The position numbers and the translations under genes were made by a program. DNA of 64,000 nucleotides from Myxococcaceae bacterium (GTDB lineage: Bacteria > Myxococcota > Myxococcia > Myxococcales > Myxococcaceae): positions 62,001 through 126,000 of the forward strand of contig JAEUJQ010000061.1 of the NCBI GenBank assembly GCA_016793095.1, given 5' to 3'. Below, in pieces: positions 23,582 through 55,466 of this stretch. Position 1 is the first letter of the stretch. Each line of letters opens with the position of its first letter. The notes below the pieces were generated by a model that had not been told where the DNA came from, did not search any database, and saw nothing but the letters and a program-made list of their open reading frames with translations.

Positions 23582-25437
23582 GCATGAGCGCAGCCATCGC
23601 CCTCGGTGCGTGCAGCCCGGTCGCGCTCGGACCGGACGGTGGGACAGCAGGCGGCTCTGCGGCAGGCGGCTCTGCGGCAGGCGGCTCTGCGGCGGGCGGC
23701 TCGACGGCAGGCGGCTCGACGGCAGGCGGCTCGACGGCGGGCGGCTCTGTGGCGGGCGGCTCTGTGGCGGGCGGCTCGACGGCAGGCGGCTCTGCGGCAG
23801 GCGGCTCCGCGGCAGGCGGCTCCGCGGCAGGCGGCTCTGCGGCGGGCGGCTCCGCGGCAGGCGGCTCCGCGGCAGGCGGCTCCGCGGCGGGCGGCTCGAC
23901 GGCGGGCGGGTCCACGGCAGGCGGCTCCACGTCAGGCGGTTCCACGGCAGGCGGCTCGACGGCGGGCGGGTCCACGGCAGGCGGCTCTGCGGCAGGCGGC
24001 ACCGCGACGCCGATGAGCGTCACCGTCACCCTGAGCCGCGCGAACGGCGTCACGGGCACCCAGCGCGTCAACCTGGGGCTGCCGCTCGCCGACGGCATCG
24101 CGCCCACGACGCCCATCGGCGTGCGGGTCGGCGGCGCCGTCGTCGCGACGTACTCGCGCTCGCTCGCGACGTACCCCAGCGGCAACACCCGCAGCTTCCA
24201 GGTGCAGTTCGACGCACCTCCGACCGCGCTGAGCGCCGACCTCGAGCTCGGCACGACCGCGCCGGCGTTGACACCGGCGGCCGTCGATTCGCTGCTGCAG
24301 GACGAGCCGCTCGGCACGGCCATGGTGCGGACGCCGCGCGTGTGGGCGACCCTGCCCGCCTCGTGGCTCGTGACGAGCACCGTCGCCGGCCGCCTCGTGA
24401 CGAACGCCTCGCTCACGACGATGCCGCTCAACGCCTGGCGGCTGCGCTGCGACCACGTCGGGTTCGGCTCCTCGGCCTTCGCGCCGCTGATGGGCACCGC
24501 CGGCTCGTGGCTGTACGACCGCGGCACCGCGCTCTACCGGGGCTATGTGGTGACCGGCGGGACGGGCCCGCTCCAGAGTGCGTACCGCGAGACCGATCTC
24601 TACCGGCAGCGCCTGCTCGCGAGCTCGACGACGCCGCCGAGCACCGACCTCAAGTACAACTACACGCAGAACCTCGCGCTGCACTACCTGCTCACGGGAG
24701 ACGACCGCTTCCGCGAGGCCGCCGAGACGATCGCCAACCGCACCACCGTCAGCGGGTACACGGGCGCCATCAGCCCCTCGTTCTGGACGGAGCGGCACGC
24801 CGGCTTCGGCCTGCTCGCGAACGTCTACGCCGCGCGGGTGAGCGACGATCAAGCCGCCTCGTTCCGCACACGCGCCGACACGATCCTCACCAACCTCGTC
24901 GCCATTCAGAACACCCCGCTCAGCCTCTCGTCAGCGCCGGCCGCCAAGATGCTCGACGCGACGTACCGCTGTTTCGCGCACACGCCACAGGCGCACGACC
25001 TCTCCGAGTACGTCAACCTCGACGGCGCACCGGCCACGCTCGTCTGCAGCCCGTGGATGAGCGCGATCGTCGCCGAGGGACTCGAGGCCTGGGCCGACGA
25101 CGCCCCGGCGCCACGTCGCACGCTCGCGCTCGAGGCCATCGTCCGCCTCGGGCGGCGACTGGTGAACCCCGACAACCGCAACGTCTCGGGCGGCCGGCCG
25201 CACTACCTGCTCGGGATCGACGGAGCGAACGCACCGGACGCCTGGGACGAACACTGGGGCGAGGTGGCGTACGTCGGAGCGATGGCGTGGCACTACTCGG
25301 GCCGCACCGACACGACCCTGCGCACCAACACGATGCACTACGTCACGGGCTTCGCGGCCGACGGGGTGATCGGCCAGCTGCGCAGCTTCAACTGGCAGTG
25401 CCGGGCCGCGATCGCGACGCCGTACTACCTGCAGTGA
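23557..25437 (+). CDS. Lipoprotein with AGGSx repeat linker and an alpha-toroid-like domain
   Basis: The 626-residue protein has a lipobox (ALGAC) at about residues 15-19, then about 24 five-residue AGGSx units where x is A, T or V (residues about 29-149). From about 150 on, a beta domain resembles the N-terminal part of PcRGLX/YetA-type proteins ([11 protein letters not shown], then SFQVQFDA), followed by a helical domain ([40 protein letters not shown]) as in alpha/alpha-toroid polysaccharide-active enzymes. The activity is not established. The repeat is probably a flexible tether holding the domain away from the membrane. Confidence 0.75.
23644..24003 (+). repeat. 15-bp in-frame tandem repeat encoding AGGSx
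   Basis: About 24 copies of a 15-base unit (consensus GCAGGCGGCTCTGCG with variation at the third positions and the x codon) lie inside the lipoprotein gene. Because the unit length is a multiple of three, copy-number change keeps the frame. Blocks of identical x (SA, ST, SV) indicate recent local duplication. Confidence 0.9.
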
Positions 25438-52863: not shown

Positions 52864-53352
52864 CGGCCACGCAACCGGCGGGGCGTGCGGGCTGACCGAC
52901 CTCGAGCGCCCGACCCCGTGGCGTCGGAAGGACTGGCGGAGCCCGAACGCCTGCACCGGGAACCTGAGAGCACGGGTCGCGGCGTTCACCTTCTTCGCTG
53001 CTGTGTCTGAGCCATCGGGAGCTCCTTCGGGCCGGGGAGCGGCCGTCGGCCGCATCACCCTCTCGTCGTCGCGGGGCATCGGATGACGCGAACTCCGGAC
53101 TGTCGTTGCGGCAGCGTCGTTCCTGCGAGCGCGGCGTCGGGGCATGGTCGCAGCAGTCGCGACGCCACCGTCATCCAGCACGGGCGCCGATACGCGTCAT
53201 CGCGGGCGTGGACATGCGCTCGTCGGACCAGCCGAGCACGCCGGTGTCCCAGCGCGCGGAGACGTCTCCGGCAGTCCCCGAGCCCAAACTGTCCAGGCAG
53301 GCGGTCGAGGTCCCCGGCGCCCAGCTCCAGCGCAGTGAGGTAGGCTCGCGAC
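52864..53352. other. 489-nt stretch without a supported gene
   Basis: Nothing I recognise lies here. Several overlapping short frames exist on both strands but none has a convincing start or family features. The minus-strand frames between 53171 and 53435 look somewhat protein-like but have no supporting site, so this may be a decayed gene. No hairpin with a T run is seen. Confidence 0.5.
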
Positions 53353-53793
53353 ATGCTCGTCGGCGTCGTCGCGCTGGTCCTCTCACAAGCCATGATCCGG
53401 GTCGCCGTGCTCGACGTGTCGGCGCCCGACGCCATCTACGAAGACGTCTCGCGAGGGCTCGCCGAGCGCGTATCGGACGAGCTGCTCAAGAAGGGGTTCT
53501 TCTCGAAGCGGGTCGACGAGTCCGAGCTCCCGGTCGAGAACTGCCGAGTGGGGCCATGCCTCGGCGTCATCGCGAAGGCGCGGGGCGCTGACGTGCTGTT
53601 GCTCCTCGACGCGACCGAGGACGACAAGGGGCGCGTGGCTGTCTCGTTGAGCGCGATGCGCGGCCGTGACGGGCTCCCGCTCGCCGTGGGCCGCTGGACG
53701 ACGACGAGTGAGGGCAAGCCGAACAAGCAGCTGACGAAGTTCCTCGAGGCGACGCAGAAGGCTGTCGCGAAGCACGTCGGAGAGGCACGGTGA
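53353..53793 (+). CDS. Small exported protein of unknown function
   Basis: The 146-residue protein begins with a hydrophobic stretch (MLVGVVALVLSQAMIRVAVL) followed by an alpha/beta part with SRGLAERVSDELLKKGFF and GADVLLLLDATED, resembling small extracytoplasmic domains found in myxobacterial lipoprotein neighbours. No enzyme motif. It overlaps the next gene by four bases (GTGA), so they form one operon. Family not recognised. Confidence 0.65.
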   Translation: MLVGVVALVLSQAMIRVAVLDVSAPDAIYEDVSRGLAERVSDELLKKGFFSKRVDESELPVENCRVGPCLGVIAKARGADVLLLLDATEDDKGRVAVSLSAMRGRDGLPLAVGRWTTTSEGKPNKQLTKFLEATQKAVAKHVGEAR

Positions 53794-54017
53794 GGTGGGC
53801 GTGGGCGTTGTTCCCGCTGGCCGCAGCCTGCGCCACGCTGAACACCGCAGGAATGAGTGAGCCGTGCAAGCGGCTGTACGACGCGTGCCTCAACACCTGT
53901 CCGACCGCACAGCAGCCTCTCGACCACACCCGCAGCAGCTCGGGCTCGAGCATTCAGATCGAGGTCGCTGCCTGCACCAACGACTGCAACGAACGCGCAC
54001 GGCGCTGTGGGCTGTGA
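53790..54017 (+). CDS. Small Cys-rich lipoprotein
   Basis: A 75-residue protein starting at GTG 53790 with a lipobox (LAAAC) at residues 10-14 and six further cysteines in two CxxxC clusters (CLNTC, CTNDC), likely disulphide-bonded. Its stop codon lies inside the first unit of the minisatellite that follows. Family not recognised. Confidence 0.65.
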   Translation: MRWAWALFPLAAACATLNTAGMSEPCKRLYDACLNTCPTAQQPLDHTRSSSGSSIQIEVAACTNDCNERARRCGL

Positions 54018-54791
54018 GGCGTCCTCTCTCGTGGGCCAGTACCCGGCCATGGACTGGGCCGCGCGCCACCGTGCGCTGTGAGGCGCCCTCTCTCGTGGAC
54101 CAGGACCTGCCATGGCCCGGGCCGCTCCGCACCGTGGGCTGTGAGGCGTCCTCTCTCGTGGGCCAGTACCCGGCCATGGACTGGGCCGCGCGCCACCGTG
54201 CGCTGTGAGGCGCCCTCTCTCGTGGACCAGGACCGGCCGTGGCCCGGGCCGTGCGGCACCGTAGCTGTGAGTCGTCGCTCGTGGGCCGTGGCCCGGGCCC
54301 CGCGGCACCGTGGCTGTGAGACGTCCTCTCTCGTCCAGTGACCTCCCGTGGCCCGGGCCGCGCGGCACCGTGGGCTGTGAGACGTCCTCCTTGTGGGCCA
54401 GTGACCGGCCGTGGCGCGGGCCGCGCGGCACCGTGGCTGTGAGACGTCCTCTCTCGTCCAGTGACCGCCCGTGGCCCGGGCGCGCGGCACCGTGGCTGTG
54501 AGCCATCCTCCTTGTGGGACCGGCCGTGGCGCGGGCCGCGCGGCACCGTGGCTGTGAGACGTCCTCTCTCGTCCAGGGACCGGCGGTGGCCCGGGCCGCG
54601 CGGCACCGTGGCTGTGAGACGTCCTTCGTGGGCCAGTGACCGGCCGTGGCGCGGGCCGCGCGGCACCGTGGCTGTGAGACGTCCTCTCTCGTCCGGTGAC
54701 CGGCCGTGGCCCGGGCCGCGCGGCACCGTGGCTGGGAGGCGAGTCGTCTTTCGTCGGCCAGCGACCGGGCGCGGCTCGGGCCGGCACGGCG
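54009..54791. repeat. GC-rich minisatellite, about 13 units of 49-64 bp
   Basis: Tandem units each begin GCTGTGAG and are spaced at 54011, 54075, 54138, 54202, 54264, 54313, 54374, 54436, 54495, 54551, 54611, 54671 and 54731. Units 1 and 3 (64 bp) are identical and units 2 and 4 are nearly so, giving a 127-bp higher-order repeat; units 6-12 alternate between a CTCTCTCGTCCAG form and a CGTGGGCCAG form. Units include the self-complementary 10-mers GGCCCGGGCC and GCCGCGCGGC. No coding potential on the plus strand. Unit 1 overlaps the end of the preceding gene. The 78 bp after the array, before 54870, hold nothing else. Confidence 0.95.
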
Positions 54792-54869
54792 CCCTGGCCG
54801 ACATGAAGCACCGGAGTCGAACGAGTCCGCCGAGGGTGGTCGGCGCGCGGCCGTGGTAGACGTCTCGAC

Positions 54870-55466
54870 GTGCGGAAGCTCCTCATCGCCGTGATCCTGC
54901 TGCTCGCGCTGGCCTTCTTCGCCCGCAACTCGCCTCACTACTCCGTGCTCCGCCTGCAGCAGGGCCTCGAGCAGGGCGACCTGAACGTCGTGATGCGGTA
55001 CGCCGATCTCGGCCGGTTCGCCGAGTTGCCGGTCGAGCTGTCGGTGGCGATGGCTGCCGCCGGCATGAAGGAAGCGGCCGGCGGCCTGGGCGAGGCCCTC
55101 GCGAACGCCTTCGGCACCGCCATCGGCGCCGCGGTGAAGCAGGTCGGCGGGCAGGTCGCGACCCAGGAGCTGCGCAGCCGCATCGAGAAGCGCGACCTGA
55201 TCCGGTTGCTCGGTGGGTTCCGGCCGAACGAGGGGCTGAGCTGGTACGGCGGCATCGAGTCAATCGGCGGCGACGCGGCGATCCTCACCGTCGTCGGCAC
55301 GTGCGACTCCCGCGAGTCGAAGGGCGAGCGCATCGGGTCGCGTCTGGGCATCGAGCTCATCAAGGTGCGCGGCGCGCTGCTCGGGCTTCCGTACGACTGG
55401 CGCGCCAACGGCGTCGAGGCGAACTCGCTCAGGGGCCTCGTGAGGGACTGCGTGCTCAAGTTCTGA
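54870..55466 (+). CDS. Membrane-anchored DUF2939-like protein
   Basis: The 198-residue protein starts at GTG 54870. An N-terminal helix (LLIAVILLLALAFFARNSP) precedes a soluble domain with SVLRLQQGLEQGDLNVVMRYADLGRF, recalling DUF2939 proteins, where alternating short-helix repeats describe a charged patch. A single cysteine pair lies near residues 143 and 195. Function unknown. It is the first gene behind the minisatellite. Confidence 0.65.
   Translation: MRKLLIAVILLLALAFFARNSPHYSVLRLQQGLEQGDLNVVMRYADLGRFAELPVELSVAMAAAGMKEAAGGLGEALANAFGTAIGAAVKQVGGQVATQELRSRIEKRDLIRLLGGFRPNEGLSWYGGIESIGGDAAILTVVGTCDSRESKGERIGSRLGIELIKVRGALLGLPYDWRANGVEANSLRGLVRDCVLKF

Follow-up and report, generated by a model that had tools for sequence, protein, structure and literature searches.

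A GC-rich tandem array lies in the intergenic spacer between a 75-aa and a 198-aa gene in a 64,000-nucleotide stretch of a Myxococcaceae genome (the window). With a probability of roughly 0.8, we read this array as a non-coding minisatellite confined to a single locus, in which a dimeric unit was amplified by slippage or unequal recombination within a spacer free of constraint. The array is ordinary in kind and not exceptional in its own genome; its mild interest lies in the relocation of a gene pair away from the spacer and in an apparent genome-wide excess of comparable arrays.

Array units and flanking genes

TRF delimited the array at 54007-54798, with periods of 60, 120, 127, and 235 (scores 508-946). 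Splitting the sequence at GCTG[T/G]GAG, with unit 13 cut by hand, gave 13 units of 64, 63, 64, 62, 49, 61, 62, 59, 56, 60, 60, 60, and 64 bp (Table 1). An earlier note on this DNA had described a repeat array with a dimeric higher-order period and about 13 units sharing one start. TRF, the unit split, and the alignment bear out the array, its period, and the number of units, but the common start GCTGTGAG opens 12 of the 13, unit 13 beginning with GCTGGGAG instead. The note had also seen a 127-bp period, with unit 1 repeated exactly in unit 3 and unit 2 nearly so in unit 4; the aligned pairs share 100% and 89% identity, respectively, and on these grounds the 127-bp segment at the upstream end (units 1 and 2, then 3 and 4) is read as a recent dimer duplication, which would be the latest step in the growth of the array.

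Table 1. Features of the array locus and of the relocated gene pair (window positions unless a contig is named).
Feature	Position	Strand	Basis
Tandem array of two alternating unit forms (13 units, 49-64 bp)	54011..54794	.	TRF, unit split and alignment
Units 1-4, 127-bp dimer duplication, probably recent	54011..54263	.	Unit split and alignment
Unit 5, shortened (49 bp), poor fit to both forms	54264..54312	.	Unit split and alignment
Units 6-12, form A (6, 8, 10, 12) alternating with form B (7, 9, 11)	54313..54730	.	Unit split and alignment
Unit 13, degenerate, terminal, 55-71% identity to other units	54731..54794	.	Unit split and alignment
146-aa gene, upstream	53353..53793	+	Syntenic in 6/6 congeners, 67-77% identity
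75-aa Cys-rich gene, lipobox-like N-terminus (LAAAC)	53790..54017	+	Orthologues at the same place in three congeners, 52-64% identity
198-aa gene, downstream, weak DUF2939 resemblance	54870..55466	+	53-68% identity in 6/6 congeners
Esterase and OMP-like gene pair, relocated	G000:C57:38725-40229 (L048:8726-10230)		

The alternation of two forms that had been noticed among the later units holds for units 6-12 and breaks down at unit 5, which fits neither form well, and at the degenerate unit 13. Form A units (CTCTCGTCCAG...GGCCCGGGCC) share 92-95% identity with one another, while form B (GTGGGCCAG...GGCGCGGGCC) is represented by units 7 and 11, which are 95% identical to each other and 84-88% identical to form A, and by the shortened unit 9. 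This alternation produces the 120/127-bp dimer period, and because the two forms alternate we infer that a unit of ~60 bp was duplicated, that the copies diverged, and that slippage during replication or unequal recombination then amplified the resulting ~120-bp dimer. Across the array, the ~30 nt at the end of each unit (its 3' half) are better conserved than the unit middle, a pattern that could hint at constraint and that exchange between units would equally give.

The last codon and the stop of the 75-aa gene (54015-54017) lie inside unit 1, as the earlier note had observed, and the gene has no Pfam match. From this overlap the note had suggested that the array could have grown out of the gene's 3' end. 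The 15 nt immediately 5' of unit 1 do resemble the unit ends (an equally good match arose in 0.6% of controls), but the resemblance fades at 20 nt or more, and such an origin is only weakly suggested by the sequence. Homology of the unit to the end of the gene beyond ~15 nt was considered and rejected as not significant. The note's DUF2939-like label for the 198-aa gene likewise stands as a weak resemblance, with a match below the cut-off (E=0.13, 13.0 bits vs 24.8). Further upstream, window positions 52864-53352 form a spacer of ~490 bp with no called gene, where the same two genes lie less than 60 bp apart in congeners; the locus has two gains of non-coding DNA, this spacer and the array.

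Coding and folding tests

All three minus-strand frames stay open across the array for 300-500 codons, which is the observation in favor of a repetitive protein encoded on that strand. These frames do not count as independent evidence, because they follow from a single GC-rich ~60-mer that lacks TCA, CTA, and TTA and was copied 13 times. Most unit lengths are not multiples of three and so shift the frame from unit to unit, a codon-usage gene finder written for this analysis called no gene within the array, the minus-strand frame matched no protein family beyond noise, and the repeat is absent from relatives. On the frame shifts, the gene finder, and the lack of a family match, we reject coding on either strand, in agreement with the earlier reading that coding content is unsupported, and a minus-strand protein is the least probable of the explanations considered here.

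Hairpins had also been proposed, on the strength of the self-complementary 10-mers GGCCCGGGCC and GCCGCGCGGC that can be read in the units, and these would suit an array that works as a terminator cluster or gives rise to a structured transcript. Predicted RNA folding of the whole array is no stronger than that of shuffled sequences (z=-0.21 on the plus strand and z=-0.37 on the minus strand), and single units and dimers behave in the same way (z=-1.1 to +1.5). The form A palindrome GGCCCGGGCC reads GGCGCGGGCC in form B, and is thus not maintained. No Rfam model for a structured RNA family matched the array, and a search for terminator- or promoter-like sites found none, although the promoter scan is weak in DNA this rich in GC. 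Because folding does not exceed that of shuffles and the palindrome is broken in one form, the hairpin proposal is unsupported; with the Rfam result, the folding scores led us to reject structured RNA, and we regard an RNA- or DNA-hairpin array as highly improbable.

The gene pair missing from the spacer

In all six congeners, the gap where the array lies here is instead occupied by an esterase gene and a gene for an outer-membrane-protein-like (OMP-like) product, names that were read from translated sequences rather than from family matches. The congener order is a Str_synth/SGL-domain gene, the 146-aa gene, the 75-aa gene (in three), the esterase gene, the OMP-like gene, and the 198-aa gene, and none of the six loci carries a tandem array. 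In the present genome, the esterase and OMP-like genes are absent from the gap, and contig C57 carries them side by side, intact, single-copy, and in unchanged order (Table 1). Their products share 76% and 68% identity with the proteins of one congener, G006, similar to the divergence of the flanking genes, and each congener has only one OMP-like match, at the ancestral site; this search used an opposite-strand translation, as its minus-strand hits show, which still found the site of the gene itself in all genomes. On C57 the pair adjoins a glycosyltransferase gene that has no match in congeners at E<=1e-60. Trees of the conserved neighbors place this genome inside the genus and G002 and G004 outside (support 99/98), and since these two fall outside the group that includes this genome, both the relocation and the array are taken as derived here.

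In our reading the ancestor carried the esterase and OMP-like genes between the 75-aa and 198-aa genes, as the six congeners do, and departure of the pair freed the spacer of coding constraint; the array may have arisen before, during, or after that departure. The freed spacer would then have taken up and amplified a private GC-rich sequence. No remnants of the two genes or of the congener spacer were found in or around the array, no homology was found between the unit and the relocated genes or congener spacers, and around the pair's new place on C57 the unit meets chance matches of 12-13 bp only.

The relocation also bears on a regulatory role for the array, in which the conserved ~30-bp, GC-rich, dyad-rich block of each unit would bind a factor and control the downstream gene, which would have lost its operon partners with the move of the pair. 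In congeners a gap of 12 to about 100 bp separates the end of the OMP-like gene from the 198-aa gene, which in this genome follows the array; the unit 3' halves are the best conserved; and a length-dependent effect of an intergenic repeat on its neighbor has been reported for fpg1 of M. tuberculosis (PMC2734929). Against this role stand the lack of a promoter- or terminator-like site in a scan of little power in GC-rich DNA, the broken GGCCCGGGCC palindrome in form B, and the confinement of the unit to one place in the genome, and we consider a protein-binding array unlikely. Nothing indicates that the array itself is under selection, and if the minisatellite does affect the downstream gene, the effect would be a by-product, as has been reported for a mycobacterial VNTR.

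Other arrays and known repeat systems

The search for the unit in the genome and in relatives that the earlier note had proposed was run, and it confines the unit to one locus. The genome, at 8.8 Mb, yielded no second copy (the next-best match had E=0.02), 39 relatives gave no meaningful match (fragments of 28-64 bp, E>=8e-5), and a plasmid collection gave none. The nearest genomes come from other species, with a flanking protein no more than 68% identical, and lack the array. Membership in a dispersed REP- or MIRU-like intergenic family that was amplified locally is therefore very unlikely: the genome does carry one such family, in 31 places, as well as a separate group of related arrays, but at the sensitivity used the unit of the window array occurs nowhere else in the genome.

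The family found in 31 places is a ~63-bp intergenic repeat with inverted repeats, present singly or in tandem; among the six congeners, a single weak match came from one genome. Two copies were examined, L097:2871-3061 (G000:C51:42871-43061) and L084:6181-6330; in each case the stop codons of two convergent genes are both no more than about 10 bp away, and the family is REP/terminator-like. The separate group comprises four non-coding arrays at distant loci (L058:5-582, L084:12134-12502, L057:4028-4230, and L064:19415-19679) whose units are related to one another (72-83% over 50-250 bp) and unlike the window array, which suggests that a unit has spread between loci. Elsewhere in the window, positions 23647-24006 hold 24 copies of a 15-bp-period repeat (GCAGGCGGCTCCGCG) that is open in several frames, and repeats like it with the same period turn up again across the genome.

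A sample of 1.65 Mb, or 19% of this genome, contains 18 arrays whose period is 40 or more and not divisible by three, and none was found in 1.18 Mb of relatives (0.58 Mb of congeners plus 0.60 Mb of two near-finished genomes from the family). If arrays are independent and rates equal, the probability that all 18 fall in this genome is ~0.583^18 = 6e-5, for a sample that was taken by contig rather than at random and that includes the window which prompted the question. The congener sample consists partly of contig starts from fragmented assemblies that may lose repeats, an excuse that does not apply to the two near-finished genomes. The sampled arrays have mostly private units, with a few sharing units between loci, and extrapolate to roughly 100 genome-wide, again mostly private. 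Apart from a 35-bp match (77%, E=0.008), the window array is unrelated to the other arrays of the genome; the largest non-coding one in the sample, L075:14475-15558, has a 97-bp period and 11.3 copies and lies between convergent genes. We entertain, at less than even odds, a genome-wide burst of non-coding intergenic tandem repeats in this species that would reflect a lineage-specific property of replication or repair, with the window array as one product at a rearranged place.

Among known repeats, MIRUs resemble the array in unit length (about 40-100 bp) and in being tandem and intergenic, and they adjoin or overlap the stop codons of flanking genes, as the array does here. The H37Rv chromosome carries them in 41 places (PMC2734929), whereas the array's unit is private to one locus and MIRUs are defined over several. 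REP/BIME elements are likewise GC-rich intergenic repeats with dyads, but the array is not dispersed and shows no excess structure (z near 0), and no Y1_Tnp (RAYT) gene was found in the genome. The array is comparable to mycobacterial ETR/VNTR loci such as the rnc-fpg1 intergenic repeat of M. tuberculosis (ETR-F/VNTR3239), which measures 279-358 bp, varies in length, and correlates with expression, while the same spacer in species outside the complex is a few bp (PMC2734929). Both repeats are intergenic, non-coding, of mixed unit lengths, and lineage-restricted, with a repeat-free spacer in related species. Unlike at rnc-fpg1, where copy-number variation and an expression effect have been shown, the array is known from one genome sequence, and its spacer formerly held two genes.

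With its head-to-tail, non-coding units in the range of about 10-100 bp, the array falls among bacterial intergenic minisatellites and is a reasonable candidate for a variable-number locus. Taken alone, it matters little beyond being a candidate locus for typing and a clear example of how spacer DNA grew at a place that two genes had left. Taken together, the arrays suggest that this myxobacterial lineage carries unusually many non-coding minisatellites, and such a lineage would permit asking what makes a genome prone to them.
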